Shown: positions 15,462 to 31,923 of the stretch, piece after piece | Position numbering within the stretch: position 1 is the stretch's first letter | How the letters are laid out: every line of letters begins with the position of its first letter | Source: Alphaproteobacteria bacterium | GTDB lineage: Bacteria; Pseudomonadota; Alphaproteobacteria; Bin65 | Assembly: GCA_021776685.1 (NCBI GenBank) | Contig: JAJFFJ010000044.1 | Coordinates: forward strand, 1 to 64,000 | Length of the DNA stretch: 64,000 bases | Direction of reading: 5' to 3' | Notes under the pieces: generated by a model | Told to the model about the DNA's origin: nothing | The model's input: only the letters and a program-made list of their open reading frames with translations | The model's database searches: none | Translations under genes and position numbers: made by a program

Positions 15462-16167
15462 CTGCCCGCTTTCCGCCCAGGAAGGACTCGGCGACCTCGG
15501 GATTGGCCAGCAGGCTCGCGCCAGTGTCGATATACAGGTTTTGGCCGGTGGCAAGCACATAGCCCCGGTCGGCAATCTGCAGCGCATGGCGGGCGTTTTG
15601 TTCGACCATCAGGATGCTGACGCCGGACTTGTTGACGTCGATGATCTTTTCGAAGATTTCGCCCATGACAAGCGGCGACAGGCCGGCGGTCGGTTCATCC
15701 AGCAGCAGCAGGTCCGGCTCGGTCATCAGGGCCCGGCCGAACGCCACCATCTGACGTTGCCCGCCAGAGAGCTCGCCAGCAGCCTGTTTGCGTTTTTCCT
15801 GCAGCGCCGGAAACAGGTCGTAGACACGGTCCAGGACCGGACCGAAATTGTCCTGCCGGATATAGGCGCCCATCTCCAGGTTTTCGTGCACCGTCAGCGA
15901 CGGAAAGATATTCCGCTCCTGGGGCACATAGGCCATTCCGCGGGGCACCAATTCATCCGGCGGCGCGTTGGTAATGTCTTCCCCTTTCAGGGTGACGCGG
16001 CCTTCGCGCAGGGGCACAAGCCCGAAGATTGCCTTCATCGCCGTGGATTTTCCGGCGCCATTGGAACCGATGATGACGACGATCTCCTTTTCCGAGACCT
16101 CCACATCCAGGCCATGCAGGATATCCGCACCACCATACCCGCCGATCATCCCGGTCGCAGACAGCAT
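15454..16167 (-). CDS. Branched-chain amino-acid ABC transporter ATP-binding protein (LivF family)
   Basis: A 237-residue ATPase with Walker A GSNGAGKST, signature LSGGQRQM and Walker B LLLLDEPTAGLSP. The short length and the YVPQERNIFPSLTVHENLEMG stretch distinguish LivF from LivG. Its start overlaps the LivG stop by one base (TGATG), consistent with coupled synthesis of the two ATPases. Confidence 0.95.
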   Translation of the reverse strand: MLSATGMIGGYGGADILHGLDVEVSEKEIVVIIGSNGAGKSTAMKAIFGLVPLREGRVTLKGEDITNAPPDELVPRGMAYVPQERNIFPSLTVHENLEMGAYIRQDNFGPVLDRVYDLFPALQEKRKQAAGELSGGQRQMVAFGRALMTEPDLLLLDEPTAGLSPLVMGEIFEKIIDVNKSGVSILMVEQNARHALQIADRGYVLATGQNLYIDTGASLLANPEVAESFLGGKRADA

Positions 16168-16952
16168 CAGGCGTCCGCCACGGCTTCAGGTTGATCGCTA
16201 TGGCCCAGATAGGCCTCGATCACGCGTTTGTCGGCGCGTATGTCCGTCATATCCCCTTGGGTGAGCACGGTGCCTTCGGCCATCACGATCACCGGGTCGC
16301 ACAAGTCGCCGATCAGATCCATGTCGTGCTCGATTACGAAAAAGGTATAGCCGCGCTCTTCGTTCAAACGCCGGATATTCTTGGCCAGATCGCCCAGTAA
16401 AGTGCGATTGATGCCAGCGCCAACTTCGTCGAGCAGCACGACGCGTGCGTCAGTCATCATCGTCCGGCCCAGTTCCAGCAATTTCTTCTGACCGCCGGAA
16501 AGATTGCCCGCCAACTCGTATTTCACGTGGGTCAGTTTGAGGAAATCGAGGACTTCTTCTGCAGTCTGCCGCAGTTCCGCTTCTTCCCGGCGCATTTGGC
16601 TGCCGCCCAGCATCGCCCTGAAAATGCTCTCGCCGCTTTGGCCGGGCGGCGTGACCATCAGGTTTTCGATCACTGGCATGGTTGCGTATTCATGGGCAAT
16701 CTGAAAGGTCCGCACCAGGCCTAGCCCGAACAATTCATGGGGCTTGCGGCCGGTGACATCCTGGCCGTCCAGAATCACCCGCCCGGAGGTGGGTGGAAAC
16801 ACCCCGGCAATGGTGTTGAACAGGGTGGATTTACCAGCGCCATTGGGACCGATCAGCCCGGTGATCGTGCCCCGCGCCACCTCAAGGGAACAGTCCCGAA
16901 CCGCCTGAATCCCCCCAAAGGACTTCGAGACGTTTTCAACCTTGATCATCAC
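16167..16952 (-). CDS. Branched-chain amino-acid ABC transporter ATP-binding protein (LivG family)
   Basis: A 261-residue ATPase with Walker A GPNGAGKST, a signature LSGGQKKLLELGR and Walker B VVLLDEVGAGIN. The Q-loop region FQIAHEYATMPVIENLM fits LivG. A C-terminal VIEHDMDLIGDLCDPVIVMAEG segment carries the switch His. It is the first gene of the minus-strand Liv operon. Either of two adjacent ATGs (16952 or 16949) may be used. Confidence 0.95.
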   Translation of the reverse strand: MMIKVENVSKSFGGIQAVRDCSLEVARGTITGLIGPNGAGKSTLFNTIAGVFPPTSGRVILDGQDVTGRKPHELFGLGLVRTFQIAHEYATMPVIENLMVTPPGQSGESIFRAMLGGSQMRREEAELRQTAEEVLDFLKLTHVKYELAGNLSGGQKKLLELGRTMMTDARVVLLDEVGAGINRTLLGDLAKNIRRLNEERGYTFFVIEHDMDLIGDLCDPVIVMAEGTVLTQGDMTDIRADKRVIEAYLGHSDQPEAVADA

Positions 16953-19162: not shown

Positions 19163-19774
19163 TCAGTCCATCAATTCAGCGATCAAAGGGCTGTTCGGCC
19201 GTTCCAGCAAGCGATGATTCCAGGCCAGCAAATTTGGCAAGTCGTCGCCGAAATTTCGGCGGCGCCGGGCGCCGTTGACCGCATAGCCGACGATGATGTC
19301 GGTTACCTGAAAATCATCACCCAATATGTATGTCTTGCCCTCCAGGGCATTGTTCAGCGCCTTCAGGCTGCGTCCCAACTCGAAATTATTCTGCTTGATG
19401 ATGTCCGGCACCCGCCGCTCTTCCGGGTAGAGGAACGTGTTGCGGAAGGTGCTCCAGGAATGGGGCTCGATCTCGGTCATGCAGAAATAGGACCATTGCT
19501 CGTGCAGCGCGCGCAGGCGAGTGCCAGCCGGTGCGATCAGCCCCTTGTCCGGGTGCGCGTCGGCGAGAAATGTGCAGATGGCCGCGGATTCGAACATTGG
19601 CTCGCCATCAATCAGCACTGCCGGCAACTTTCGCAGCGGATGAATGAATTCGATTTCCTCGGAGCCTGCAAGCTTGGGGCTGCTGATCGATTCGAACGGC
19701 AAATCGAGTTCCTGTAACACCCAGCGCACGCGGGCGGATCGGGTCGGCTCAAATTCGTAGAGGGTGATATCCAT
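19163..19774 (-). CDS. Glutathione S-transferase family protein (copy 1)
   Basis: A 203-residue protein with an N-terminal thioredoxin-like half (ITLYEFEPTRSARVRW, then LPAVLIDGEPMFESAAICTFLAD) and an all-helical C-terminal half ending in a DDFQVTDIIVGYAVN-type segment. Ser in TRSAR is the likely glutathione-activating residue and the ES pair binds the gamma-glutamyl group. The ATG at 19774 is set by AGGAG upstream. An AT-rich stretch before it (about 19820-19845) may hold its own promoter. It is a tandem paralog of the next gene. Confidence 0.9.
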   Translation of the reverse strand: MDITLYEFEPTRSARVRWVLQELDLPFESISSPKLAGSEEIEFIHPLRKLPAVLIDGEPMFESAAICTFLADAHPDKGLIAPAGTRLRALHEQWSYFCMTEIEPHSWSTFRNTFLYPEERRVPDIIKQNNFELGRSLKALNNALEGKTYILGDDFQVTDIIVGYAVNGARRRRNFGDDLPNLLAWNHRLLERPNSPLIAELMD

Positions 19775-19856
19775 GGCACATCTCCTGGCGGCCACCTGGC
19801 CGCAAATTCCAGTTCACGCCTTAATTAATAAGATCGTTAAGTAAAGCAAGACCACG

Positions 19857-20453
19857 CTAGGCGACGAGGGGACAATGCTCCCGCGCCATCAGGCGCTCAC
19901 GATAGGCCGCCAGGTTGTCGAACCCGTCCGCCATTTTCATCCGTACCGCCCAATTGACCGTAAAGCCGACGATGATGTCGGTTATCTGGAACTCGTCGCC
20001 CAGCAGGTAGGGTTGATCTTTGAGCTTCCGGTCAATTCCTGCAACCGCGGCGGTCACCTGGGCCGCATTCTGCGGCAGGATCTCGGCGACCCGCTCCTCT
20101 TCCGGCAGCCGAACCATGTTGCGGTAGCTGTGCCAGAGATAGGCCTCCACTTCGGTCAGCGCGTAGCTGACCCATTGGTCATGCAACGCTCGCTCCCACG
20201 TGCCGGCGGCGGGGATCAGGCCCTTGTCGGCATGGCTGTCGGCGAGCCAGGTGCAGATCGCGGCTGATTCGAAGAGAGGCCGGCCATCGTCCACCAACAC
20301 CGGCATCTTGCTGAGCGGGTGCAGCTTCGACATTTCGCCACTTTCCATCGCGGTCTCGTAGTCCCGTTCTTCGAATTCGAGCCCCAGTTCGGCCATGGCC
20401 CAACCAACGCGCAGCGCCCGCGACGGCGTCGCTTGATAAACAGCGTATGTCAT
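19857..20453 (-). CDS. Glutathione S-transferase family protein (copy 2)
   Basis: A 198-residue paralog of the downstream transferase, with matching landmarks: TPSRALRVGWAMAELGL, MPVLVDDGRPLFESAAICTWLADSHADKGL and GDEFQITDIIVGFTVNWAVR. The ATG at 20453 is chosen because homology begins there and AGAGAG precedes it. It lies 76 bp after the deacetylase-like gene on the same strand, so it might be read through from the GntR operon. Conjugation or isomerisation of maleyl-type compounds is one family activity worth considering here. Confidence 0.9.
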   Translation of the reverse strand: MTYAVYQATPSRALRVGWAMAELGLEFEERDYETAMESGEMSKLHPLSKMPVLVDDGRPLFESAAICTWLADSHADKGLIPAAGTWERALHDQWVSYALTEVEAYLWHSYRNMVRLPEEERVAEILPQNAAQVTAAVAGIDRKLKDQPYLLGDEFQITDIIVGFTVNWAVRMKMADGFDNLAAYRERLMAREHCPLVA

Positions 20454-20529
20454 CTCGTGTCTCTCTTCTGATTTGTCATTGGCCGCAATTGTGAAGGAAG
20501 CGCAATTCCCGTCGCGGACCAGGCGATGG

Positions 20530-21444
20530 TCAGGGTTTTGCCGCCGCCAAGATCTGCGAACCGGACGCCGACCAGACGCCTTGGATAGACATGACGTGGC
20601 CGAGGGCATTTTCCAATGCGCCGATGCGATGCGGTTGTCCGCTCATCCAGGGGTGGATCATCAGGGTCATCATGCGGCCGTCATTGACGGTCGCTTCCCG
20701 GCTGAGCACATCCGCCTGGTCCGAGACCTGTTCGCTGAATTGCTCCTCGGTATGCTGGTAATGCAGCATCAGGGTCTGGTCGTCCATTTCGTGCTGCAAA
20801 GGCAGCGACCAAAGCGGACCATTCTTTGTGGTCAGCGGGAACGGCATCTCGTCGCTCATCCAGTCCGTGACATAGCCGACGCCCTCTGCAGCCAGCAGGT
20901 CGAGCGTATTCATGGACTGGGACTTGGCAGGAGAGGCCCAGCCGGTGACCGTCAACCCGGCGCCCCGCAGCACACCCAGCGCCTCCTGAATTTGCGCACG
21001 CTCCGCTGCCTCGTCCATGTCGCCATGGTGCAAGCGGCCCATATCGACGCCGTAGCCGATCACTTCCCAGCCACGTTCGGATATCTGTTTCAGAATCCAC
21101 GGATAGCGCTCCGCCACCTTCGAGTTGATCGCGACCGTTGGCGTCACACCGGCGCGTTCCAAGGCCGCCATCACGCGGAATACGCCAACCCGATTGCCAT
21201 AGTCACGCAAGGTGTAGTGGCGCAGGTCTGGATAGGGGGTGGACATCCCGCCCGGCGCCTTGAAGGGCTCAGCCGGTGGGTTCAGGGGGAAAAACTCCAG
21301 GGCCATGACACAGAAGAAGGCCAGTCGGTTGCCGTCTGGCCATGCCACCTTGGGCCGGTCCGGCTGCATGGTCCATTCGTACCAGTCGTGGTCCATGCCA
21401 TGAGCGCGCTTGGGGTATTCGAGATATTTGGGATCCAGGGTCAT
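20530..21444 (-). CDS. Polysaccharide deacetylase-family (PuuE-like) hydrolase, copy 1
   Basis: A 304-residue NodB-fold protein of the PuuE/allantoinase-like branch rather than a cell-wall deacetylase: no signal peptide, the RDYGNRVGVFRVMAALERAGV motif, VIGYGVDMGRLHHGDMDEAAERAQI, and a C-terminal MIHPWMSGQPHR segment. Relatives hydrolyse amide bonds of small cyclic compounds such as allantoin; I recall a bacterial cyclic-imide hydrolase in this group but could not verify it. It overlaps the paralogous upstream gene by 4 bases. It is the last enzyme gene of the GntR operon; its substrate is unproven. Confidence 0.85.
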   Translation of the reverse strand: MTLDPKYLEYPKRAHGMDHDWYEWTMQPDRPKVAWPDGNRLAFFCVMALEFFPLNPPAEPFKAPGGMSTPYPDLRHYTLRDYGNRVGVFRVMAALERAGVTPTVAINSKVAERYPWILKQISERGWEVIGYGVDMGRLHHGDMDEAAERAQIQEALGVLRGAGLTVTGWASPAKSQSMNTLDLLAAEGVGYVTDWMSDEMPFPLTTKNGPLWSLPLQHEMDDQTLMLHYQHTEEQFSEQVSDQADVLSREATVNDGRMMTLMIHPWMSGQPHRIGALENALGHVMSIQGVWSASGSQILAAAKP

Positions 21445-22400
21445 GCCGCATCCCCCAGAGCGCTGCCATATGCTTCGCGATGCGAGACAATCGCGGCCTC
21501 CGCCTCGTCATAATGGTTTTGCAGGTACCAGTCGGCAATCTCGCGCCCGGTGGTGACCCAGACGTCGTCGTGGCCGGTGATGTATTCCAGCGCCTCGGCA
21601 AAGGCGTCGATGCGGTGGGGTGTGCCAACGGCGTAAGCGTGCAGCGGAATACACATGACCGTGCCGCCAGGTCCGTCCTCGTCCGCCGCTTCCTGGTACA
21701 GCCGGTCAAAGTTGGTCTTCAGCATGTCCGCATAGCGGCGCGGCGGATGGTTGTGGACGTTGTAGACAATGATGTCGTTCATCTCGAGCGAGTAGGGAAT
21801 CGAGATGAAGCGCCCGTCCCGCACTTTCACGGGCTGGGGTTGGTCGTCACAAAAAAGATCGCATGTGTATTTGAGACCATACTCCGCCAGCAGATCCATG
21901 GTCCGCTCGGTATGGGTGAGGGCCGGCGCGAGCCAGCCGGCGATCATCTGCCCCGTGTGCTTTTGCACGGTCTCGATGGCGTCCTCGATAATCGCGCGCT
22001 CTTGCGCCTCATCCATGTCGTAGCAGTAACGGGTGTTGTAGATACCGTGGGAATAGAACTCCCAGTCGCGGGCAACGCACTCCTTGATGATCTCCGGATG
22101 ATGATCGCAGAGCGCCACGTTGAGCGAGACGCTGCCGCGTACACCGCACCTGTCCATCACTTCCATCAACCGCCAGTGGCCGACCCGGTTGCCATAGTCC
22201 CGCTGGGCATAGGGAATCACATCAGGCGCCGGCCGCGCCCAGGCCTTCCGCTTCGGATTTAGCGGCGGCTCCAACTCATAATATTCGATGTTGGGCGCGA
22301 CCCAGAAGGCGACACGGGCGCCATTGGGCCAGCTCACGCGGGGCCGGTCGTTCCACGGCAGGTAGTCGTAAAGACCGGGATCTGCTTTTTGCTCAGTCAT
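21441..22400 (-). CDS. Polysaccharide deacetylase-family (PuuE-like) hydrolase, copy 2
   Basis: A 319-residue cytosolic paralog of the downstream gene. It shares PRVSWPNGARVAFWVAPNIEYYELEPPLNP, the RDYGNRVGHWRLMEVMDRCGV motif, EFYSHGIYNTRYCYDMDEAQER and IPLHAYAVGTPHRI. The pair could form a heteromeric enzyme or act on two related substrates. A 4-base ATGA overlap couples them, and 43 bp separate this gene from the amidase-like gene upstream. Family members cleave C-N bonds in heterocycles or amides; the exact reaction is not known. Confidence 0.85.
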   Translation of the reverse strand: MTEQKADPGLYDYLPWNDRPRVSWPNGARVAFWVAPNIEYYELEPPLNPKRKAWARPAPDVIPYAQRDYGNRVGHWRLMEVMDRCGVRGSVSLNVALCDHHPEIIKECVARDWEFYSHGIYNTRYCYDMDEAQERAIIEDAIETVQKHTGQMIAGWLAPALTHTERTMDLLAEYGLKYTCDLFCDDQPQPVKVRDGRFISIPYSLEMNDIIVYNVHNHPPRRYADMLKTNFDRLYQEAADEDGPGGTVMCIPLHAYAVGTPHRIDAFAEALEYITGHDDVWVTTGREIADWYLQNHYDEAEAAIVSHREAYGSALGDAA

Positions 22401-22443
22401 GGCAGTTAGTCGTTCGCTTCAATCGTCGGTTGATTCGGGCGGT

Positions 22444-23121
22444 TTAGTCGTTCAGGGCCACGTAGCCCTCAAGATACTCCTTGACCACGTCCACCGGCTC
22501 TACGTCCGCATACTTCATCAGCATGTCGCACAGGTTGGCGAAATGCGGGATCTCGTGTTTGTCGGCAACGCATTCCTCGGCAACGATCGTCCGGTAGCCA
22601 TGCGCCAGGCTATCGACAGCAGTTGCTCTCACGCAGCCCGACGTAGAGCCGCCGGTCAGGATGAGCGTATCGGCCTTGTGCCAAACGAGAAGCGATTGTA
22701 GCGATGTCTCGTGGAAGGCCGACGGCATGCGCTTGTTGTAGATAACGTCGTTGTCGTGATCGATCTCGAGCCGGTCATCGAACTCCGACCTGCGCGAGCC
22801 CTTCTTGATATTCTGCAGCGAATCCGGTGTGTCCGTGCGGGTCCCCCAGACGCCTGCATCCTCACCGGAGTCCATATACGCCACGTGGGTCCAGACCACC
22901 GGCAGTTTCTTCGACCGGCAGATCGCCGCCAGTTCGTTCACATAGTCGAGCTGTTTGGGATCGGTCTCGTAGGCGGTTTTGAATTCACCGACCGCCGTAT
23001 AGGACTTCTGCAGATCGATGTTCACCAGCACTGGCTTCCGGCCGAAACCGAACTTGGCCCGCGCCGGGTTCGACTTGATCTGCGCGTAATATTCCCGCGG
23101 CGTGAGATCTGATTCTTCCAT
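22444..23121 (-). CDS. Isochorismatase-family cysteine amidohydrolase (N-carbamoylsarcosine amidase/maleamate amidase-like)
   Basis: A 225-residue alpha/beta cysteine hydrolase with an intact triad: Asp36 (NIDLQKSYT), Lys130 (YNKRMPSAF) and Cys163 (TSGCVRAT). The TSGCVRA signature is that of the N-carbamoylsarcosine amidase branch; NicF, the maleamate amidohydrolase of aerobic nicotinate degradation, is also in this superfamily. The enzyme should release ammonia from a carboxamide in the cytosol. An ATG one codon upstream is also possible. Start and stop are coupled to the lyase gene. Its place between the NodB-type hydrolases and an aconitase-type hydratase suggests it opens a half-amide to a diacid. 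Confidence 0.88.
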   Translation of the reverse strand: MEESDLTPREYYAQIKSNPARAKFGFGRKPVLVNIDLQKSYTAVGEFKTAYETDPKQLDYVNELAAICRSKKLPVVWTHVAYMDSGEDAGVWGTRTDTPDSLQNIKKGSRRSEFDDRLEIDHDNDVIYNKRMPSAFHETSLQSLLVWHKADTLILTGGSTSGCVRATAVDSLAHGYRTIVAEECVADKHEIPHFANLCDMLMKYADVEPVDVVKEYLEGYVALND

Positions 23122-24005
23122 CACTCTTCCTCGTATTTCTTGCCCAGTTCGAGCATTTCAGGGGTACCGATCAGGCCGTTCAGGCCATCAAAGTCCAGCA
23201 TTCGGTTGCGGAAAGGCGTCGTTGTTCCGTGGCTTTTGAGGCTGCCGTAATACTCTGTCAGTTGCGCCGCTACAGCGCGCACGGTGCCACCGGGAAAAAT
23301 CGCCATGTCATAGCCCATGGCCTGCAGGTCTTCGCCCGACTTCACCGGCGTCTTGCCGCCTTCCACCATGTTCGCCATCAGCGGTGCGCGGCCTTTCAGC
23401 CGCTCCATGGTGGCGGCAATGTCCGCTTCAGAGGTCAATGCTTCCACGAACAGGATATCTGCGCCCGCCTCGGCATAGGCCGACGCCCTGTCGAGCGCCG
23501 GTTCAAGTCCTTCCACTGCCACCGCATCGGTTCGGGCGATGATCAGCGTTTCTGCACTGTCGCGCGCATCCAGGGCCGCCTTGATCTTGCCGACCATCTC
23601 CGCCGTGGAGACCACGGACTTGTCCCGCAGGTGCCCACAGCGCTTGGGCATGGTCTGGTCTTCCAGCTGCAGGGCCGACGCGCCGAGCCGCTCGAACAGC
23701 TTGACCGTGCGGATCACATTGAGCGCGTTGCCAAAGCCGGTGTCTGCATCGACGATCACCGGCAGGTCCACCCGCTCGCGGATCGGCGCCAGCGTCTCCG
23801 CCACCTCGGACATGGAGACCAGCCCAATATCCGGCCGGCCAAAGCGGGTATAGGCGATGCTCGCGCCTGACAGGTAGACCGCATCAAACCCCGCTTGTTC
23901 AGCCGCCAGGGCCGTGAGCCCGTCGTAGATGCCCGGGGCGATCAGAATCTCCGGCGCCTCTACAAGCGCACGGAGGGTCCGGAAGGGCGGGGTCGCGATG
24001 TTCAT
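23121..24005 (-). CDS. Isocitrate lyase/PEP mutase family lyase (2,3-dimethylmalate lyase/methylisocitrate lyase-like)
   Basis: A 294-residue TIM-barrel enzyme. VDADTGFG (residues 85-92) supplies the magnesium-binding Asp residues and KRCGH (121-125) the catalytic loop Cys of the carbon-carbon lyase branch, not the mutase branch. Family members split methylisocitrate, 2,3-dimethylmalate or petal-death-type substituted malates to pyruvate or glyoxylate plus an acid; oxaloacetate decarboxylases are also here. No citrate-cycle or methylcitrate gene is nearby. Coupling to the two hydratase subunits argues for a substituted malate as substrate. Specificity is inference. Confidence 0.88.
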   Translation of the reverse strand: MNIATPPFRTLRALVEAPEILIAPGIYDGLTALAAEQAGFDAVYLSGASIAYTRFGRPDIGLVSMSEVAETLAPIRERVDLPVIVDADTGFGNALNVIRTVKLFERLGASALQLEDQTMPKRCGHLRDKSVVSTAEMVGKIKAALDARDSAETLIIARTDAVAVEGLEPALDRASAYAEAGADILFVEALTSEADIAATMERLKGRAPLMANMVEGGKTPVKSGEDLQAMGYDMAIFPGGTVRAVAAQLTEYYGSLKSHGTTTPFRNRMLDFDGLNGLIGTPEMLELGKKYEEE

Positions 24006-24508
24006 GCCGCCTCGCTATGCAAACGTTTCTTCAGATGAGGCAGCAGGCCGCCATCCTCGATCATCGCCATCAGATGGGGTGGGATCGGATCACAGGCGAG
24101 CGTGCGGTCCTGCGTTGTGTTGGTAACCGTGCCTGCGCCCGGGTCCACCACCAGTTGGTCACCAGCTTGGATCGTGTCCGCCTCCGGACATATCAGGGCC
24201 GGTAGCGCCAGGTTCATGGCGTTGCGGTAGAAGATGCGGGCGAAGCTCCTGGCGATGACGGCGCCCACCTGCAGGACGTTCAACACCATCACTGCCTGTT
24301 CGCGCGAAGAACCCATGCCGAACGCGTCACCGCCGACGACGACATCGCCCGGCGCAACGTTGGGTGCGAAGGTCGGGTCCACGGCCTCGAGGCAGTGTTT
24401 GGCCATCTCCTCAATCGAGCCTTTCATATAGACACCGGGGGCCAATACGTCCGTATCGATGCCACCGCCGAAGACCCAGGCGTAGCCCTGGCGGGTGAGC
24501 CCACTCAT
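24002..24508 (-). CDS. Aconitase-family hydratase small subunit (LeuD-like)
   Basis: A 168-residue swivel-domain protein. IDTDVLAPGVYMKG forms the substrate-selecting loop and GDAFGMGSSREQA the conserved swivel motif, followed by SFARIFYRNAMNLALP. The size matches LeuD, dimethylmaleate hydratase small subunits and maleate hydratase small subunits. The ATG at 24508 overlaps the large-subunit stop in ATGA; a longer open frame upstream is an artefact inside the large subunit. The loop YMKG differs from the loops I associate with leucine biosynthesis, and no other leu gene is nearby. Confidence 0.9.
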   Translation of the reverse strand: MSGLTRQGYAWVFGGGIDTDVLAPGVYMKGSIEEMAKHCLEAVDPTFAPNVAPGDVVVGGDAFGMGSSREQAVMVLNVLQVGAVIARSFARIFYRNAMNLALPALICPEADTIQAGDQLVVDPGAGTVTNTTQDRTLACDPIPPHLMAMIEDGGLLPHLKKRLHSEAA

Positions 24509-25782
24509 GCCGCTTGCTCCATCAGGAATTCGCGCGGATCGGTAATCTCCCCGGTAACGGCCGCCGCCGCAACGGTGTAAGGCGAGGCCAGATAGACCTG
24601 GCTTTCGGCGTGGCCCATGCGGCCCTTGAAATTTCGTGCCGTGGACGAGATGCAAACTTCTCCTTCGGCCAGCACGCCCGCGCCATAGCCCGCGCAGGCG
24701 CCGCAGCCACTCGGCATGACGATGCCGCCGGCCTCGCCCAGAATGGCGAGCGTGCCGTCGGCGGCTGCCGTTGCAGTAACCCGGGTAGACGCCGGCGCGA
24801 TCAGCAGCCGCACGCCCTTTGCCACTTTCCGGCCGCGCAGTACTTCGGCGGCCATGTGAAGGTCACTCAGCTTGGCGCCGGTGCAGGCGCCGATATACGC
24901 CTGGTCGATGCGCGCGCGCTCGGTCTCGGTGACTGGCGCACTGTTCTCCGGGCTGTGGGGCGCGGCTACATGGGGCGCCAGGCCGTCCGCATCAAACACG
25001 TGATGCGCTTCAACCTCCGCGTCCGGATCGCTGACCCATTGTTGCCATTCACCGGCGTCGCCGCCGGCAGCGGTGATATGGTCCACCGTGGTCTGGTCGG
25101 GCGCGATCAGACCGACCTTGCCGCCCAGTTCCGCCGCCATATTCGACATCACCATCCGCTCGGTCATGGAAAGACCGTCAACGGTGGAGCCACAGAACTC
25201 GATCGCCTTGTAGTTGCCCATCGCCATGCCCAACCGGCCACACATGGCGAGCATCATGTCCTTGGCCACCACACCCAGACCCAGCATGCCGTTCCATTCC
25301 AGCCGAATCGTTGGCGGCACGCGCGCCCAGATTTCGCCGCTGGCGAGCACGCCCGCCATCTCGGTCGCGCCGATGCCGATCATGAAACAACCGAAGGCGC
25401 CTCCCGTCGTCGAATGGCTGTCACCGCCGGCCACGAACATGCCCGGACGAAGATGGCCCCGCTCCGGCAGGACCACGTGGCAGATGCCCTGCATGTCGTG
25501 AAAATTGTCGATGTCGTTGGCCGCGGCCCATTTGCGCGTCAGATCCAGAATGGCGGCGCTTTCCGCGTCCACCGCAGGCACATAATGGTCGCTGATCAGC
25601 ACTACTTTTGATGGGTCCCAGACGCCGACGCCGAGTTCCTCCAGCATCGGCTTCACCCGACGTGGTCCGCCCGAATCGTGAATCATCGCGAGATCCACCC
25701 TGGCGGTGACAATCTCCCCGGAGGTCACCTGCGCCTGCCCCGCGGCGTGGGCACAGATCTTTTCAGCCAATGTCATCGCCAT
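24505..25782 (-). CDS. Aconitase-family hydratase large subunit (LeuC-like)
   Basis: A 425-residue subunit with the three Fe-S-ligating cysteines Cys300 (IGACTGAK), Cys360 and Cys363 (SGCGAC), plus AGGDSHSTTGGAFG and STARNFKGRMG active-site motifs. It binds a [4Fe-4S] cluster and adds or removes water across a dicarboxylate double bond. The ATG at 25782 has AGGAG seven bases upstream. It is the first enzyme gene after the GntR regulator (10 bp). Known relatives include isopropylmalate isomerase, maleate/citraconate hydratase and dimethylmaleate hydratase; the neighbours favour the last group. Confidence 0.92.
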   Translation of the reverse strand: MAMTLAEKICAHAAGQAQVTSGEIVTARVDLAMIHDSGGPRRVKPMLEELGVGVWDPSKVVLISDHYVPAVDAESAAILDLTRKWAAANDIDNFHDMQGICHVVLPERGHLRPGMFVAGGDSHSTTGGAFGCFMIGIGATEMAGVLASGEIWARVPPTIRLEWNGMLGLGVVAKDMMLAMCGRLGMAMGNYKAIEFCGSTVDGLSMTERMVMSNMAAELGGKVGLIAPDQTTVDHITAAGGDAGEWQQWVSDPDAEVEAHHVFDADGLAPHVAAPHSPENSAPVTETERARIDQAYIGACTGAKLSDLHMAAEVLRGRKVAKGVRLLIAPASTRVTATAAADGTLAILGEAGGIVMPSGCGACAGYGAGVLAEGEVCISSTARNFKGRMGHAESQVYLASPYTVAAAAVTGEITDPREFLMEQAA

Positions 25783-25792
25783 GCAGTCGCTC

Positions 25793-26623
25793 CTATTCCG
25801 CCGCGGTCCAGGCCCCGGCGGGCTCCTCCAGCACTTGCCGCAGGTCCATGTGATACTGATATCGGTCCGGCCGGTAGAGGGCGACCAGATGCTCCACAGC
25901 CCGCCCGTTCTGATCACGGACAGTGCGGGTCGCCTGCAGCAGGGGGCCGCCGACATCTACATCCAGCAGCCCTGCGATCTCTCCGTCCACCAGGCAGGCG
26001 GACAGCGTCTGCACCGCGCCGGAAATCTGAATACCGCAACGCTCCAGCAGCGCGAGCATCGGCTTGGCCGCCAGATCAGCCTCGTCGTAGGACCGGCCTA
26101 TGTCTTCCGGCACCCAGGTGGTCAGGTGCGAGAAAGGGGCGCCGTCGACGCTGCGGACCCGGCGCGCCTTCTGGACCGACTCGCCAATATCGCAGCCCAG
26201 TTCCCGCGCCACATCAGGCGATGCCGGCACATAGTCAAAGGCAATCAACTTCACCTGGGTTTCACGGCCCATAATCACGAGATTGCGGTAGAGCCCGTCT
26301 ACCGACGCCATGACCGGATGCGCCGCCGTATCGAACGTAACCCGCGTCCCCCGGCCCCGCTCGCGCGACACGAGGCCATCGGCCGCAAGTTCGTTCAATG
26401 CGCGCTTGGTTGTGATGCGGGAGACGCCGTAGAGTGCAGTCAGTTCCTGCTCGCTCGGCAGGATCGACCCATGTGGGTATGCGCCATTAACAATTCCGTC
26501 ACGGAGCACCAGATAGATACGATGATACAAAGGCGTCTGCGCGCGCCTGTCCGGCGCCTGAACAGGCATTGCCCGGGCATCATCGCCGCCGGGCTTGGCG
26601 GAGGCTTTGCGAAGCGCAGTCAC
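25793..26623 (-). CDS. GntR-family transcriptional regulator (HutC/UTRA type)
   Basis: A 276-residue regulator with an N-terminal winged helix (about residues 30-97; EQELTALYGVSRITTKRALN then GLVSRERGRGTRV) and a C-terminal UTRA ligand domain (about 115-260). It heads the operon that encodes the hydratase, lyase, amidase and NodB-type hydrolases. A perfect palindrome 34 bp upstream of its start is a likely autoregulatory operator, and the same site lies near 32280. UTRA regulators usually release DNA on binding a pathway metabolite; which one is unknown here. Confidence 0.92.
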   Translation of the reverse strand: MTALRKASAKPGGDDARAMPVQAPDRRAQTPLYHRIYLVLRDGIVNGAYPHGSILPSEQELTALYGVSRITTKRALNELAADGLVSRERGRGTRVTFDTAAHPVMASVDGLYRNLVIMGRETQVKLIAFDYVPASPDVARELGCDIGESVQKARRVRSVDGAPFSHLTTWVPEDIGRSYDEADLAAKPMLALLERCGIQISGAVQTLSACLVDGEIAGLLDVDVGGPLLQATRTVRDQNGRAVEHLVALYRPDRYQYHMDLRQVLEEPAGAWTAAE

Positions 26624-26715: not shown

Positions 26716-27645
26716 ATGAAAGCACTGATCATCAGGAAATACGGCGGCCCGGAGGTTCTGGAGCTTGCCGAAATACCAGACCCCGCCCCCAGCCCGGGCG
26801 ATGTGCTGGTGGAAGTGCATGCCGCAAGCGTCAATCCGATCGACTGGAAGATGCGCGAAGGGCGCGTGCTGCGCTTTTTTGACGTGCCATTGCCCCATGT
26901 GATGGGCCGGGACATGTCCGGCGTCGTGCGGGAGGTCGGGTCGGAGGTCACAGGATTGCAACCGGGGGACCCAGTATTTGGTCTGGCCAACCCGTTGCGG
27001 GATGGCACCCAGGCGGAACTAGTGGCGATCGAAGCTGATCTGGTGGCCAAGAAACCGGACGCGCTCACCCACGAAGAAGCAGCCTCCCTGGGCGTCTCCG
27101 GCCTCAGCATGCTGGCTGCGCTCGAGGAAACTGCTCCGGTATTCCGCGGCATGCGGGTTCTGGTTCATGCCGGCGCCGGCGGCGTCGGCTCACTGGCAAT
27201 TCAGTATGCGGTGGACCGAGGTGCCGAAGTCCTCGCCACCGCCAGCGCACGCAACACCGACTATGTGCGCAGTCTGGGCGCGTCAAAGGTCATTGACTAC
27301 AAGCTGAGCGACTGGCCGCAGCGGGCATTGGACTGCGATGTGGTGTTCGACACGGTGGGAGGATCGACCCACCAGGACTCACAGGCTTGCCTGAAGCCGG
27401 ATGGCGCGCTGGTCTATCTGAACGCCGCGCCACTGCCGGACACACCGCCACGTGAAGATATCATGGTGTTGCTCGCGCCGGTCCGGACCAGCCGCGAGAA
27501 GCTTGAGCGAGTTGCAGAACTGGCCGCCGCGGGCGCGGTGCGCGCCCAGGTGACCGAGACCTATCCGCTGCATGAGGCCGATACAGCCTACGCCCGCAGC
27601 CAGACCGGTCACACCCGCGGAAAAATCGTCATCAAGCTCCGGTAA
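26716..27645 (+). CDS. NADP-dependent quinone oxidoreductase-like MDR-family protein
   Basis: A 309-residue medium-chain dehydrogenase/reductase of the zinc-free quinone-oxidoreductase type. VNPIDWKMREG and MGRDMSGVV mark the catalytic GroES-like domain; HAGAGGVGSLAIQYA is the nucleotide-binding motif, with TASARNTDYVRSLGASKVIDY following. No structural-zinc Cys cluster is present. Relatives reduce quinones, enones or alkenals with NADPH. It is divergent from the GntR gene with the operator between them, so it is probably in the same regulon. The ribosome site is weak. Confidence 0.88.
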   Translation: MKALIIRKYGGPEVLELAEIPDPAPSPGDVLVEVHAASVNPIDWKMREGRVLRFFDVPLPHVMGRDMSGVVREVGSEVTGLQPGDPVFGLANPLRDGTQAELVAIEADLVAKKPDALTHEEAASLGVSGLSMLAALEETAPVFRGMRVLVHAGAGGVGSLAIQYAVDRGAEVLATASARNTDYVRSLGASKVIDYKLSDWPQRALDCDVVFDTVGGSTHQDSQACLKPDGALVYLNAAPLPDTPPREDIMVLLAPVRTSREKLERVAELAAAGAVRAQVTETYPLHEADTAYARSQTGHTRGKIVIKLR

Positions 27646-27673: not shown

Positions 27674-29137
27674 CTATCCGCTGCCCAGGAAGGGCAGCCA
27701 GAGCACTATATCCGGGAACATCACAATTAGTGCGACCAGCAGCATGGCGCAGGCCATGAAGGGGATCGCGGCCAGACAGATTTCAACAAAGCTGGTGCCG
27801 GGCGGCGCCACGCCCTTCATCACGAACAGCAACAGACCGAAGGGTGGCGTGGTGAAACTTATCTCCAGCGCCAGCAACATGATGACGCCAAACCAGATCA
27901 CCCGCATGTTCTCCGGCATATCGAAGGTCAGCGCTGCGAGCTGTCCGCCTTCCGGCGTCTTCAGCAGGGTGAAGAAAATTGGCACGGTCAGCAGCATCAT
28001 GGCCAGTTGATCCATGAACATGCCGAGCAGCAGCAGAATGCCGAACATGCACAGCAGGAGCACCAGGTCGGAGACGTCAAATGCGACGACCCACTTGATC
28101 AACGCCTGATTGGCACCAGAAGCCGCAAACACGTTCGAAAAGATCGACGAACCGAACAGGATCAGCAGCGCGATCACGGTCACGCGGCCCGCACCCCACA
28201 AGGACCGCCACAATGACTTCGCGAATGTGGGCAGGAACACAGCGACTGCCTTACGCGCGTTCGTGCGGCTTTCGTCTGACCCAATCATGCTGCCAATCAG
28301 CGGGGCCACGAACAAATAGCCGATCGCGAGCAGCACCACGGCAAGGGAGCCATAGGCCGCCGACTCCGAGGGCGTTGCGACTCCAAACATAATCAACAGG
28401 ATCACCAGGAAGATGATCGACACCATCGGCACGACGTCGGTCATGAACAGAAGCAGGCGGCGGCCCCACGGCACATAGTCAACGTCGTAGGAAGGCGCTG
28501 CTTCGGGATCCAGTGCTGCCATGACAAAGATCAAAACGGCGTAGAAAACCGCCAGAATAAGTCCCGGAACGATCCCGGCAATGAGCAGACGGCCAATGTC
28601 GATTTCCGCGATGGTGCCAAGCAGGACGGCCAGCGCCGACGGCGGGATCAACATCGCCAGCCCACCGGTGCCGAGAATCGGCCCGATCGACATCTTTTTC
28701 TTGTACCCGCGCTTGGACATCTCCGGGACCATCAGAGTGCCCAAAAGCGCGGTCGACCCCATTGAGGAGCCCGAAAGCGTGGCAAATGCAGTGCCGCCCG
28801 CCACGGTGACGTAGGACAGGCGCGCCGGCACGCGCCCCATCAACGTGTCGATTGCGTTGAACATCCTGCCGGCGAGGCCGGTCTGGAAAAACAACTCGCC
28901 CATCAACAGGAACATGGGTATGGGAACAATCGCGAAGATCGCCATATTGGCGAACGCGTTGTCGGTCAGTTGCTCAATAGAGGCAGCGACATTGCCGTCA
29001 AAACTGTCGAAGCGGCCATAGATAAAAAAGGCGGCGATTGTGCAGACGATGATGAAGGACAACCCGACCGGGACGCCCACAAACATCAAAAATAGAATCG
29101 AGCCCAGAAGCGCGGCGAGAACCCAATACCATTCCAT
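27674..29137 (-). CDS. TRAP transporter large permease (DctM family)
   Basis: A 487-residue membrane protein with DctM signatures: AIVPIPMFLLMGELFFQTGLAG, GGTAFATLSGSSMGSTALLGTLMVPEM, GTGGLAMLIPPSALAV and ALEISFTTPPFGLLLFVMKGV. It is longer than the 430-450 typical size because of a hydrophilic loop with SDESRTNARKAVAVFL in the middle. It belongs to a different DctM subgroup from the other two permeases in the window. It is last in a P-Q-M operon. Confidence 0.94.
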   Translation of the reverse strand: MEWYWVLAALLGSILFLMFVGVPVGLSFIIVCTIAAFFIYGRFDSFDGNVAASIEQLTDNAFANMAIFAIVPIPMFLLMGELFFQTGLAGRMFNAIDTLMGRVPARLSYVTVAGGTAFATLSGSSMGSTALLGTLMVPEMSKRGYKKKMSIGPILGTGGLAMLIPPSALAVLLGTIAEIDIGRLLIAGIVPGLILAVFYAVLIFVMAALDPEAAPSYDVDYVPWGRRLLLFMTDVVPMVSIIFLVILLIMFGVATPSESAAYGSLAVVLLAIGYLFVAPLIGSMIGSDESRTNARKAVAVFLPTFAKSLWRSLWGAGRVTVIALLILFGSSIFSNVFAASGANQALIKWVVAFDVSDLVLLLCMFGILLLLGMFMDQLAMMLLTVPIFFTLLKTPEGGQLAALTFDMPENMRVIWFGVIMLLALEISFTTPPFGLLLFVMKGVAPPGTSFVEICLAAIPFMACAMLLVALIVMFPDIVLWLPFLGSG

Positions 29138-29707
29138 TTAGCGGTCCTCACCCAAGGCACGTTTGGTTTCTTCCAGCTCCGCCCTGTCGCTGGCAACCCC
29201 TGCCTCGCCAATATGCATTGGCTCTGCCACGACCACAAACCGGCCAAATTCAATCGCCATCAGCAGGAACCCGATCGGAAATGCGATGGTCGTGATCCAA
29301 CGGCGAATTTCCTGATCGCGAAGTTCGTCGAAGGCCATCACGTCGCCCCAATGCTCGGCGAACAGGCCCCAAGTGTACCAGGTCCAGGCCAGGCAGAAGA
29401 CACAGCAGATCAAAGCGATCAGCCGGGACAAACCATCTCGAATTCGGTCGCTCACGGCCGCGGTCAGAAGTTCAATATAGATATGGCTTCGGTTACGAAT
29501 CAGCCAGGGCGACCCCATAAACAGGCAATAGATGAAGCCATATTCGATGAAGGTGTGAACGCCGCCAAAATAGGACCAACCGAATGTGCGGAATAACGTG
29601 ATGTAGACGATGCCAATCATCATCAAGCCGATGTAAACGGCTGTCAGCGCCATCAGCACCCATAGGACTCCGCCCCAGGCACGGTCGAGAGCTTTCAAAC
29701 TGGCCAT
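29138..29707 (-). CDS. TRAP transporter small permease (DctQ family)
   Basis: A 189-residue four-helix membrane protein. It includes GGVHTFIEYGFIYCLFMGSPWLIRNRSHIYIELL-type sequence between helices 1 and 2 and a basic/acidic C-terminal tail (SDRAELEETKRALGEDR). The ATG at 29707 is preferred over one at 29725, because the latter abuts the base of a strong hairpin. It ends at the base before the large-permease start, so the two are tightly coupled. Confidence 0.88.
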   Translation of the reverse strand: MASLKALDRAWGGVLWVLMALTAVYIGLMMIGIVYITLFRTFGWSYFGGVHTFIEYGFIYCLFMGSPWLIRNRSHIYIELLTAAVSDRIRDGLSRLIALICCVFCLAWTWYTWGLFAEHWGDVMAFDELRDQEIRRWITTIAFPIGFLLMAIEFGRFVVVAEPMHIGEAGVASDRAELEETKRALGEDR

Positions 29708-29728
29708 TGCCGATACGCCCCGCATAAA

Positions 29729-29776: not shown

Positions 29777-30757
29777 CTACTTCTGGTACAGACCGATAAG
29801 TTTATTCACGTGTGCGGTCGGCCGGCCAGCTTTCTTCAAGCGCCCCATCATCCGCGCCGTTGCGGAGGAGAGAGCCAGCTTGGAATAGACCTTGGCGTTC
29901 GGCACGCTGTAGAACTTCATGCCTTCTTTCATCAGCGTGGCGCGCTCTTTCTTGGCCAGCCCCTCAAGGATTTTGCGGTGGCGGGTTTCCGCCATGATGA
30001 CCTGGCTCTGCAGGATGTTCTTTTCTTTCGCGCTCAATTTCTTCCACCTGTCCAGATTGATGATCCAGGCGATGTCGGTGGAATAGAATTCCGGCTCCAC
30101 GGCGTGGCGCAGGAACTTGTCCCATTTCAGGCCTTTCAGGCCAATGGTGGCCCAGGCGCTGGCATCAACCACACCTTTTTCAAGGGCAGCATAGACCTGG
30201 GTCGCCCGCATCGGGTGAGTCTTCGCCTTCAATGCCCGGAAGAACGCACCGTAGATCGGGTTATCGCGCATCTTCACGCCAGCCAGATCGAGCATGCCGT
30301 TTTTGAACTTCGGCGGGTTTTTCATGTAGATCCGGAAACGGCCCCCGGGGCTGGTCCAACCCAGATATTTCACATTGAAATATTTCTGGTTGATCTGGTC
30401 GATCATGGCGGTGCCGCCATTTTTGCGGGCCATTTCCGGCGTCTGGCTGGAAATGGAGATCGCTTCATTCTCAGGCACGGCACGAGCCCAGAAAGCACTT
30501 GGCGTGCAGGTGATGTCGACGCGGCCCTTGCGGACGGCAGGCGCCTGCTGGAACATCTTGATCGAGTTGAACGGCAGCACCTTGATCTTGATACCGGCCT
30601 TGGTGATGCGCGCGGCCAGATCCTTGCACAGCTTTGTGTAGATCAGGAAATCCGGGAACGGATAAACGAGAGTCAATTCGGTCGCCGCCTTTGCGGGACC
30701 TGCCGACATGGTGGCCGCGATTGTCGCGGCTCCTGCGGCTGTCAGTAGTTTCTTCAT
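29777..30757 (-). CDS. TRAP transporter substrate-binding protein (DctP family)
   Basis: A 326-residue periplasmic protein with a signal peptide ending in GPAKAA. The core includes LVYPFPDFLIYTKLCKDLAARI and LAGVKMRDNPIYGAFFRAL, where the Arg of VKMR is the expected carboxylate clamp. It differs clearly from the other two TRAP binding proteins in the window and so likely has a distinct ligand. A GGGAGGAA ribosome site precedes the ATG. It lies within the GntR-regulon block, although no copy of the operator was found directly upstream. Confidence 0.92.
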   Translation of the reverse strand: MKKLLTAAGAATIAATMSAGPAKAATELTLVYPFPDFLIYTKLCKDLAARITKAGIKIKVLPFNSIKMFQQAPAVRKGRVDITCTPSAFWARAVPENEAISISSQTPEMARKNGGTAMIDQINQKYFNVKYLGWTSPGGRFRIYMKNPPKFKNGMLDLAGVKMRDNPIYGAFFRALKAKTHPMRATQVYAALEKGVVDASAWATIGLKGLKWDKFLRHAVEPEFYSTDIAWIINLDRWKKLSAKEKNILQSQVIMAETRHRKILEGLAKKERATLMKEGMKFYSVPNAKVYSKLALSSATARMMGRLKKAGRPTAHVNKLIGLYQK

Positions 30758-30849: not shown

Positions 30850-31923
30850 CTATGCCCGTTCCGCCATGATAAGCGTCCATGGAAACCGCCAATAGGGGTA
30901 ATCTGCGGCGAGGGTGCCGTCGGATTCCTCAAAAGGCAGGATCTCGATGTTGGTGAATCCCGTTTCCTCGAGCAGTTCTACCGCATCCATCTCGGCCCAG
31001 GGCTCCATATAGGGCTCGTTGTTGCGGCGGGCATGCCCATAGTGAATATAGCGCCGGAACGGGTCCGGCAGATCGTAGAAATCCACGTGCACCATGCGGC
31101 CGCCCGGTTCAAGCAGCCGGTGCGCCTCGCGGAAGGTCTTCTCGATCTCCGGGGGCGGCATCTCATGCAGCAGCATGGTCGATGTGACGAGGTCGAAACT
31201 CTCGTCCTCAAAGTCCGTCTTTGTGCAATCAGCCTGCACGTAGCGCGCGTGGCGCGCCTGGGCCGCCGCGGCATCGCGGGCGGCCAGCTTCAGGCAGGGC
31301 GCCGCTATATCCACGCCGACAATATCTGCATCGCGGAACCGTTCGATGAAGGGGCCGGTGCTCTTGCCGAAGCCGCAGCCCATGTCGAGCAACCGCCGTG
31401 GCACGCCGCCCGCTTCCACCCGGTCGGTCAACCGGTCGTGCAGATCCTTGTGGCGTTTACCGGCAAGCGGCGTGGTCGAACGTGCACCGCGCTCATAAAC
31501 ATAGCCCGCAATCTCGTCGCTCCAGACGCCGCCTGGATGCTGATGGATGTCCACGACGCGGAAATATTTTGGCACGTCAAAATCATCAGCCAGGTCAAGA
31601 GCGCCTTCAGGCAGGCCTTCCGTGGCCAGGCCATCGACCAGCCGTTCCCGGTCCTGATCGTGGAAAGGCTGGAGGCCATAGCGGCCGGAATACTTGAAAC
31701 GCTGCAGGTGCCGCTCCAGCCAGGAATAGGTGCGGTAGAGCACCGTATCGCCGATCAGCGCGTCCACGTCATCAACGGTTGTAGGCTCCGATCCCGCTTT
31801 GGCAGCGCGCCGGTCAAAGTCTTCCTGGAGGGTCGGATACAGATCCCGGGTCCACCACGACTTCATGCCCAGCAGAAAGTCCTGGGCGGCCGTGAAACTA
31901 CGATCATCAATCGGCGTGGTCAT
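30850..31923 (-). CDS. Class I SAM-dependent methyltransferase with long N-terminal extension
   Basis: A 357-residue protein. The methyltransferase domain occupies about residues 170-320: LLDMGCGFGKSTGPF (motif I), VGVDIAAPCLK, FDLVTSTMLLHEMPP and LLEPGGRMVHVDFYD. The first 160 residues are a separate, mostly helical region (WWTRDLYPTLQEDFDRRAAK and later IHQHPGGVWSDEIAGYVYERG) that I do not recognise. It overlaps the small upstream gene by four bases (ATGA). The candidate operator at 32271 lies before that gene, so the pair may belong to the GntR regulon. The substrate is unknown. Confidence 0.82.
   Translation of the reverse strand: MTTPIDDRSFTAAQDFLLGMKSWWTRDLYPTLQEDFDRRAAKAGSEPTTVDDVDALIGDTVLYRTYSWLERHLQRFKYSGRYGLQPFHDQDRERLVDGLATEGLPEGALDLADDFDVPKYFRVVDIHQHPGGVWSDEIAGYVYERGARSTTPLAGKRHKDLHDRLTDRVEAGGVPRRLLDMGCGFGKSTGPFIERFRDADIVGVDIAAPCLKLAARDAAAAQARHARYVQADCTKTDFEDESFDLVTSTMLLHEMPPPEIEKTFREAHRLLEPGGRMVHVDFYDLPDPFRRYIHYGHARRNNEPYMEPWAEMDAVELLEETGFTNIEILPFEESDGTLAADYPYWRFPWTLIMAERA

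Follow-up and report, generated by a model that had tools for sequence, protein, structure and literature searches.

Which compound would an alphaproteobacterium take apart with the seven-gene set found on the minus strand of contig JAJFFJ010000044.1 (Alphaproteobacteria bacterium, assembly GCA_021776685.1), within the 64,000-nucleotide stretch at positions 1 to 64,000 (hereafter, the window)? Read from 26623 to 20530, the genes encode a GntR/UTRA regulator, the two subunits of an aconitase-type hydratase (AcoL and AcoS), a C-C lyase with a KRCGH motif (LYASE), an isochorismatase-fold amidase (ISOCH) and two PuuE-like proteins (DAC2 and DAC1). Based on sequence comparison, we propose that the operon breaks down a disubstituted maleimide, with hematinic acid as the likeliest candidate, a reading that we hold at slightly less than even confidence. 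Hematinic acid carries a methyl and a carboxyethyl substituent on its maleimide ring and arises by oxidation of the propionate-bearing rings of tetrapyrroles.

In the proposed route, DAC2, probably with DAC1 as its partner, would open the cyclic imide to a half-amide, from which ISOCH would release ammonia to leave a substituted maleate; for hematinic acid this would be a triacid, in effect methyl-homoaconitate. AcoL/AcoS would hydrate it to a 2-hydroxy-2-methyl acid and LYASE would cleave that to pyruvate and glutarate, the breakdown being completed by a CoA transferase or ligase and a glutaryl-CoA dehydrogenase (GCDH) encoded elsewhere in the genome. The substrate would enter by a TRAP transporter and be sensed by the GntR protein. 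In relatives of the operon, hydration and cleavage would fall either to a LeuCD-type hydratase and a KRCGH lyase, or to LeuCD, a CoA-transferase and a 3-hydroxy-3-methylglutaryl-CoA (HMG-CoA)-lyase-like enzyme, which together would give pyruvate and glutaryl-CoA. The predicted order from imide through half-amide and substituted maleate to pyruvate and an acid is well supported by comparison.

Because neighbouring open reading frames (ORFs) share 4 bp at three junctions (AcoS/LYASE, LYASE/ISOCH and DAC2/DAC1), and the GntR stop lies 10 bp from the AcoL start, the seven genes are likely to form a single transcript. An initial annotation of 20530-25782 stopped at AcoL; the operon additionally includes the GntR/UTRA gene (25793-26623). 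The genes which that annotation had named (a PuuE-like pair, an isochorismatase-fold amidase, an aconitase-type hydratase and a KRCGH lyase) were all recovered with family models and ORFs, and the amidase triad that it had called intact is so: D37, K131 and C164 of ISOCH, which we take to be the Asp-Lys-Cys catalytic triad, do not vary in any of the 19 sequences aligned (window counted). The source genome is a draft of 4.54 Mb in 158 contigs.

AcoL belongs to the homoaconitase/isopropylmalate family, and its proposed substrate is a methylated homoaconitate. It scores above the cut-offs of TIGR01343 (hacA_fam, 467.6 bits against 385.7) and NF001614 (533.7 bits), has the cysteines expected for an iron-sulphur cluster, and best matches isopropylmalate/citramalate isomerase (4nqy/4kp1) and homoaconitase (4kp2) in the PDB. 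AcoS, with a GSSRE motif and a YMKG loop, passes the LeuD/DmdB model TIGR02087 (159 bits, cut-off 108.95). The 3-isopropylmalate dehydratase equivalogs TIGR02083 and TIGR02084 stayed below their cut-offs (393.1 against 610.65 and 135 against 245.85 bits), as did LYASE under the prpB model TIGR02317 (304.5 against 354.4 bits). In the PDB, LYASE matches methylisocitrate lyases and the 2,3-dimethylmalate lyase 3fa3, and ISOCH matches N-carbamoylsarcosine amidohydrolase (26st, 4e-32) and a putative isochorismatase (3ot4, 1e-18). Kinship of the DAC proteins with the PuuE branch was found by phmmer (DAC2 to 1z7a at 1.7e-28, to 3cl6 at 6e-27 and to 3qbu at 1.3e-7; DAC1 to 1z7a at 4e-19), and the best NCBIfam model for both, allantoinase PuuE (TIGR03212, cut-off 424.6), gave 93.1 bits for DAC1 and 119.7 for DAC2.

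Comparison of the operon across genomes, suggested as a check with the initial annotation, covered 113 related loci mapped by tblastn: 92 from a first mapping without the window, plus L126-L136, L142-L147 and L149-L152. Seven duplicates (L029-L032, L034-L036), L148 (same plasmid as L109) and L137-L141 (matches within the window's own genome) were excluded before counting. Hydratase, lyase and DAC genes were counted at ≥30% over 150 aa, the collinear triplet at ≥35%, and GCDH and controls at ≥45% over 200 aa. Eighty loci are the best of at least 559 ISOCH relatives, a sample that leans to close relatives, and locus counts are not counts of independent events, since several loci are from the same genus or near-identical (L126/L134). 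The best 80 come from Alpha-, Beta- and Gammaproteobacteria, Acidimicrobiales and one member of the Bernardetiaceae. Few genomes at each rank hold an ISOCH match (19 of 289 in the class at 1e-40, 7 of 397 in the phylum and 1 of 11 in the order, both at 1e-70, with the window genome counted each time), so the gene set (hereafter, the cassette) appears to be patchy and accessory. ISOCH matches were also present in 20 plasmid records, and among the 16 examined DAC genes occurred in 12 (one being L148, the plasmid of L109) and were absent from 4.

ISOCH, DAC2 and DAC1 form a collinear triplet in 97 of 114 regions (window counted), a grouping that is not a matter of chance; of the 113 loci, 102 have DAC2 and 98 have DAC1. 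A hydratase of the AcoL or LeuC type was found in 47 loci, a KRCGH-type lyase in 47 and an HMG-CoA-lyase-like gene in 15, with a hydratase and/or a lyase in 66 and both in 41. Three back ends can be told apart: a short AcoL with LYASE (15 loci), LeuC with LYASE (20 loci, accompanied by a Liv-type ABC importer in Rhizobium, Agrobacterium and Paracoccus), and a CoA-transferase III with an HMG-CoA-lyase-like gene (10 loci, of which 6 also have LeuC). The motif KRCGH or KKCGH is kept in 48 of the 49 KRCGH-type lyase segments (window counted), the exception being a segment of 206 residues. Since two unrelated last-step lyases serve the same front end, the product of that front end probably becomes a 2-alkylmalate-type acid.

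The identity of the released acid is suggested by a further gene. In Paracoccus, a gene near the cassette is GCDH, with 739 bits to 4w9u, 613 to 3gnc and 558 to human 1siq, against 232 to the best non-GCDH protein. GCDH lies near the cassette in 10 of the 113 loci (L052, L055, L080, L091, L099, L112, L114, L117, L120, L129), which by record title represent six lineages in two phyla (Rhodospirillales, Acidimicrobiales, Rhodocyclaceae, Thalassomonas, Paracoccus and a Burkholderia plantarii plasmid). Measured between aligned segments, it is 92 and 93 bp from AcoL in L052 and L055 (divergent), 38 and 52 bp before ISOCH in L091 and L120 (same strand), and 192 bp from ISOCH in L099 (divergent). The three Paracoccus loci add a LysR-type regulator and a CoA-transferase that best matches the succinate--glutarate model. 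In G014, the genome of the Rhodospirillales contig L052, one GCDH stands at the cassette and a second elsewhere.

This linkage exceeds what the abundance of GCDH would give. Twenty-four copies occur in 24 cassette genomes, two of which have none at 1e-110, so that about 0.5 of the 113 loci would be expected by chance; with loci treated as independent, the binomial probability is ~1e-10 for ten loci and ~1e-5 for six. As a control, 48 of 49 ORFs of the window genome match no locus, the exception being the homologue of a FAD dehydrogenase; this control is lenient, as it draws on a single genome and many of its ORFs may lack close relatives anywhere. Fairer but few are the conserved-gene controls (AcnA, isocitrate lyase and two hydantoinase/oxoprolinase genes), which match 0 of 113 loci, while the GCDH of the window genome matches the same ten. 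The GCDH cluster (k18, 9 loci) belongs to a group of only 18 gene clusters that reach at least nine loci, the others being cassette, transporter, regulator, FAD-dehydrogenase, oxidoreductase and methyltransferase clusters.

With GCDH adjoining the cassette in these ten loci, the released acid is probably glutarate and the substrate probably hematinic acid rather than dimethylmaleimide. By chemical reasoning, pyruvate and glutarate imply that the cleaved acid was 2-hydroxy-2-methyl-3-(carboxyethyl)succinate, and the imide of the corresponding maleate is hematinic acid. The imide-to-pyruvate order of the initial annotation is thus supported by the neighbourhoods, by the exchange of lyases and by the loci with a NicX-like gene described below, but maleimide, methylmaleimide and dimethylmaleimide, which it proposed as substrates, are probably wrong. 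Its more general idea that maleimides from tetrapyrroles are the substrate class agrees with hematinic acid. The compound occurs in nature: PMC7318184 lists it among chlorophyll products in leaves and also reports it from senescent leaves and lake sediments, and ChuS of E. coli is described in PMC8131568 and PMC11442138 as converting haem to hematinic acid and a tripyrrole.

Several observations weigh against hematinic acid. In 103 of the 113 loci no GCDH gene turned up near the cassette, and that of the window genome sits on another contig. The L080 match is 49% and 1.1 kb off, the L129 match is a partial one of 251 residues, cut by the locus end and 3.4 kb off, and in Paracoccus the gene lies 1.3-1.8 kb off behind the LysR gene, where it could belong to an ordinary glutarate locus. 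Within the stretches examined, L091 and L120 have GCDH and a hydratase with no lyase, and L099 has GCDH with neither of the two other enzymes. A hydratase and a lyase are both missing from 47 of 113 loci, some of which are short contigs. The glutarate-type CoA-transferase is convincing in Paracoccus only (L117: 502 bits, cut-off 750). Other acyl-CoA dehydrogenases or ligases occur in some loci, and different carriers may thus use more than one imide. The lysine of the AcoS loop, which would suit an extra carboxylate, is not universal among orthologues, its position holding V in L071, L080 and L095 and A in L056. No better PrpB candidate was found in the window genome, where the sole other full-length LYASE relative (on contig C57, 39%) scores 247 bits against the 304.5 of LYASE, both below the cut-off; as no separate methylisocitrate lyase is established there, LYASE could serve propionate metabolism in that role; a lyase confined to methylisocitrate was among the outcomes that the initial annotation named as contrary to its route. 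Finally, the solved structure that ISOCH resembles most in sequence belongs to an N-carbamoyl hydrolase rather than to a maleamate amidase, which keeps a ureide substrate in play.

Two candidate pieces of evidence were set aside. The AcoS loop was ruled out as proof of a tricarboxylate substrate by its variation among orthologues; PMC7308503 does support a part for the loop in specificity. A succinate--glutarate CoA-transferase was rejected as a general cassette member, as its matches in L027, L046 and L047 (40-41%) are no better than the best paralogues in the window genome (44-45%).

The same sequence of reactions might act on a smaller substrate, with methyl-, dimethyl- or ethylmethylmaleimide converted to pyruvate and acetate, propionate or butyrate. 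The likeness of LYASE to methylisocitrate lyase and 2,3-dimethylmalate lyase would fit this, as would the place of AcoS in the LeuD/DmdB family and the acyl-CoA synthetase or non-GCDH acyl-CoA dehydrogenases of some loci. Acetate, propionate and butyrate, however, would leave the linked GCDH without a role, and the lysine in the window AcoS loop lends slight support to a charged side chain. We regard these smaller maleimides as less likely substrates than hematinic acid, but with a probability that is not negligible.

A different view of the front end would make the operon a ureide or hydantoin pathway, in which DAC2/DAC1 open a hydantoin or allantoin-like ring, ISOCH cleaves the N-carbamoyl product, and the hydratase and lyase are unrelated. 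In its favour, the DAC proteins are closest to PuuE allantoinase and ISOCH to N-carbamoylsarcosine amidohydrolase, and a protein of the Asp/Glu/hydantoin-racemase family lies near the cassette in some loci. Such a pathway, however, would end in amino acids and give no task to the closely packed genes for hydratase and lyase, the score of the DAC proteins is below the PuuE cut-off, and four ISOCH relatives sit with a gene for a pyridine-ring dioxygenase-like protein. We consider the ureide reading improbable.

These four ISOCH relatives (53-59%; L131, L132, L151, L152) have no DAC pair. Among the 113 loci, exactly these four hold a gene with 69-100% identity to the copy in L131, whose protein has a single PDB match at E ≤ 1e-5, to 2,5-dihydroxypyridine 5,6-dioxygenase (7cn3, 3.6e-69). 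Such a dioxygenase yields N-formylmaleamate, a maleamate-type half-amide. Because ISOCH pairs either with this gene for a pyridine-ring dioxygenase-like protein or, mostly, with the DAC pair, it is best read as a putative half-amidase and the DAC pair as the likely maker of a half-amide from an imide, an assignment for which the four loci are the best evidence.

The NicX-like gene is labelled leucyl aminopeptidase in the three annotated records among these four loci, and a gene for an HpaB-type monooxygenase is likewise confined to them among the 113; together they possibly mark an undescribed cluster for degradation of a substituted pyridine. DAC2 is missing from 11 loci in total, and the remaining seven fall outside the NicX-like pattern, the contig of L111 ending right after ISOCH. 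A NicX-type dioxygenase had no match within 10001-36000 of the window and was found in 4 of the 113 related loci.

For the imide-opening step of the hematinic acid route, the two DAC proteins differ in their conservation. The alignments retained sequences of 270-420 aa (72 of 76 for DAC1, 73 of 81 for DAC2). In DAC2, S117-H118-G119, D185-D186, N208-D209, H254 and H262-R263 are each at least 97% conserved among the 73 sequences, whereas the position of its SHG histidine holds H, N, S, Y or C in the 72 DAC1 sequences, which are less conserved overall. The pair had been taken for two hydrolases; DAC2 keeps the putative active-site residues, and DAC1, without the conserved SHG histidine, is a doubtful second working hydrolase. 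As this histidine varies in DAC1, the two may form one enzyme, which we infer to be a complex in which DAC2 provides the catalysis. PMC3084791 describes both PuuE and the related HP0310 as tetramers. Imide opening by PuuE-like proteins also has a precedent, since in PMC9304392 HxnM of Aspergillus is assigned to opening the six-membered imide 3-hydroxypiperidine-2,6-dione from a deletion strain and metabolites, with an amidase acting next; the same source puts its identity to a cyclic imide hydrolase homologue of P. putida at 64%.

A glutarimide route, by which the imide would pass through glutaramate directly to glutarate and the hydratase-lyase genes would serve a different acid, would also explain GCDH, and L099 has GCDH beside ISOCH-DAC with neither hydratase nor lyase. 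Seven of the ten GCDH loci, however, hold GCDH, ISOCH-DAC, hydratase and lyase together (L052, L055, L080, L112, L114, L117, L129), and the lyase family splits malate-type acids, which are not obtainable from glutarimide; we give this route little credence.

The window genome separately holds LeuC (contig C58), AcnA (C24) and isocitrate lyase (C119), each over its curated cut-off, and with LeuC and AcnA present elsewhere the operon hydratase is not the housekeeping one. That an isopropylmalate-type isomerase and the methylisocitrate lyase of the propionate cycle merely neighbour an unrelated amide-hydrolase set is very improbable, because despite the family resemblance and the rank of LYASE as the top prpB-model match found in the genome, these separate enzymes exist, the linkage recurs in distant lineages, and the isopropylmalate equivalog and prpB cut-offs are not reached.

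The hematinic acid route shares its parts with several known systems. Nicotinate fermentation by Eubacterium barkeri uses the dimethylmaleate hydratase DmdAB and 2,3-dimethylmalate lyase, and there too a two-subunit aconitase-family hydratase and a lyase of the phosphoenolpyruvate-mutase/isocitrate-lyase family convert an alkyl-substituted maleate to pyruvate and a short acid; its maleate is formed anaerobically via a B12-dependent mutase with no imide, whereas the window operon puts the proposed imide hydrolase pair and amidase first. In the aerobic NicX-NicD-NicF pathway, the half-amide comes from ring dioxygenation, an isochorismatase-fold amidase acts on maleamate, and maleate is isomerised to fumarate. 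ISOCH has the same fold, and its relatives stand beside a NicX-like gene in the four loci above, but the nicotinate pathway has no imide hydrolase or aconitase-type hydratase. As in the 2-methylcitrate cycle, an unsaturated tricarboxylate would be hydrated and then split into pyruvate plus a dicarboxylate, and the substrate proposed here is longer by one CH2; the difference lies in LYASE, which falls under the PrpB cut-off and is linked to imide- and amide-hydrolase genes. Microbial cyclic-imide metabolism, with an imidase and a half-amidase in Blastobacter and also known from P. putida, likewise runs from imide through half-amide to dicarboxylate, with a single imidase, and we know of no linked hydratase and lyase there. 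The P. putida cyclic imide hydrolase is named in PMC9304392. The HxnM/HxnN pair of Aspergillus in that source resembles the proposed front end in using a PuuE-like cyclic imidase followed by a half-amide amidase, and differs in its six-membered imide and in the other (FAAH-like) fold of HxnN, with no hydratase or lyase mentioned in the part available.

In the open-access papers searched we found no bacterial route that consumes hematinic acid and no description of the operon combination with its proposed substrate, nor did papers on dimethylmalate lyase concern such an operon, as judged by their titles and the starts of their abstracts. Each enzyme family is a familiar one, and it is their combination, with the substrate proposed for it, that seems to be new.

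Some relatives of the operon have neighbourhoods of their own. L128 (Acidiphilium multivorum plasmid unnamed4, a conjugative plasmid) carries a compact set of CoA-transferase, HMG-CoA-lyase-like, ISOCH, two DAC, LeuC, LeuD, FAD dehydrogenase, porin, MFS and GntR genes, and its cassette is flanked on one side by transposase genes. L126 (Sphingobium plasmid pTomTYG65b) and L134 (Sphingomonas plasmid pJE1) are near-identical regions with both kinds of lyase around a single ISOCH-DAC2-DAC1: one hydratase-lyase set is LeuCD, CoA-transferase and HMG-CoA-lyase-like, the other LeuCD and a KKCGH lyase that is 54% identical to the C57 relative of LYASE in the window genome. They hold a further catabolic block and may consume two different imides. 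Among the papers listed for pJE1 or strain JE1, no title concerns this plasmid, so that it gives no pointer to a known substrate.

In nine other loci (L027, L046-L048, L051, L057, L059, L061, L067), a 2-oxoacid:ferredoxin oxidoreductase-like pair lies beside the cassette, and most of them also carry FAD reductase, Asp/Glu-racemase-family and ADP-ribosylglycohydrolase-family genes. Eight (L065, L066, L068, L070, L072, L073, L075, L084) combine the cassette with a lyase ~40% identical to that of the window and with genes for a glutamine-synthetase-like protein, a class III aminotransferase and a non-GCDH acyl-CoA dehydrogenase, the combination differing between loci; this variant probably serves a different substrate.

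A FAD-dependent dehydrogenase lies near the cassette in 20 of the 113 loci (12 long matches and 8 cut by locus ends), with flavocytochrome c and tricarballylate dehydrogenase as its best models, both below cut-off. We speculate that it could oxidise the dihydro acid to which chlorophyll's reduced ring would give rise. It was rejected as a member of the window operon, as its sole match in the genome at 1e-30 is on contig C123. That homologue (53%) stands in a locus (C123:19500-39400, L154) with hydantoinase/oxoprolinase-family genes, a luciferase-like monooxygenase, and corrinoid/siderophore-type TonB and ABC uptake genes.

Around the operon itself (Table 1), a quinone-oxidoreductase-like gene and a three-gene TRAP transporter lie upstream, and the same grouping accompanies the cassette in another genome (L030/L053). 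Relatives of the TRAP binding protein stand beside the cassette in L053 (63%), with 37% matches in L143 and L144, and relatives of the GntR gene adjoin it in L028, L053 and L058 (57-59%) and in other loci. Further upstream of the TRAP genes, a methyltransferase-like protein (30850-31923) is 26-33% identical to cassette-near methyltransferases of several loci (cluster k17). Downstream, on the same strand as the operon, a Liv-type ABC transporter (13327-16952, labels read from the sequence) was found; Liv-type importers also lie near the cassette in rhizobia and in L028/L058, the copies compared being at most 47% identical. Maleimides react with thiols, and a protective role is conceivable for the two GST-fold proteins at 19163-20456.

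Table 1. Genes of the operon and its flanks, in window coordinates.
Feature	Position	Strand	Basis
GntR/UTRA-family regulator, first gene of the operon	25793..26623	-	PF00392, PF07702
AcoL, aconitase-type hydratase large subunit (HacA/LeuC2 short type)	24505..25782	-	TIGR01343, NF001614
AcoS, aconitase-type hydratase small subunit (LeuD/DmdB family), YMKG loop	~24002..24517	-	TIGR02087, GSSRE motif
LYASE, PEP-mutase/isocitrate-lyase superfamily C-C lyase with KRCGH	23121..24005	-	PF13714, 158 bits
ISOCH, isochorismatase-fold amidase, putative half-amidase	22444..23124	-	PF00857, 97 bits
DAC2, PuuE-like polysaccharide-deacetylase-fold protein, putative catalytic imide hydrolase	21441..22400	-	Polysacc_deac_1
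DAC1, diverged PuuE-like partner of DAC2, possibly non-catalytic	20530..21444	-	Polysacc_deac_1
GST-fold protein 1, downstream, same strand	19857..20456	-	PF02798, PF13410
GST-fold protein 2, downstream, same strand	19163..19774	-	PF13417, PF00043
Quinone-oxidoreductase-like reductase between operon and transporter	26716..27645	+	label from sequence; syntenic in L030/L053, 53%
TRAP large membrane subunit	27674..29137	-	label from sequence; syntenic in L030/L053 (one contig), 71%
TRAP small membrane subunit	29138..29725	-	label from sequence; syntenic in L030/L053 (one contig), 59%
TRAP substrate-binding protein, candidate importer	29777..30757	-	label from sequence

A broader proposal, which we hold more loosely than hematinic acid as the substrate here, is that a widespread and horizontally moving pathway mineralises hematinic acid, perhaps also its dihydro form with the help of the FAD dehydrogenase. 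An imidase/half-amidase front end would be joined to swappable hydratase-lyase back ends that give pyruvate and glutarate or glutaryl-CoA, and DAC1-DAC2 would be a hetero-oligomeric imidase with one dead subunit. Haem and chlorophyll are broken down in large amounts, with hematinic acid among the products, and if the proposal is true, the missing last step in the recycling of tetrapyrrole carbon and nitrogen would be closed. It predicts a portable operon for which substrate, intermediates and products can all be named, and it would make sense of at least 559 relatives whose neighbours are annotated as polysaccharide deacetylase, isochorismatase family or 3-isopropylmalate dehydratase.

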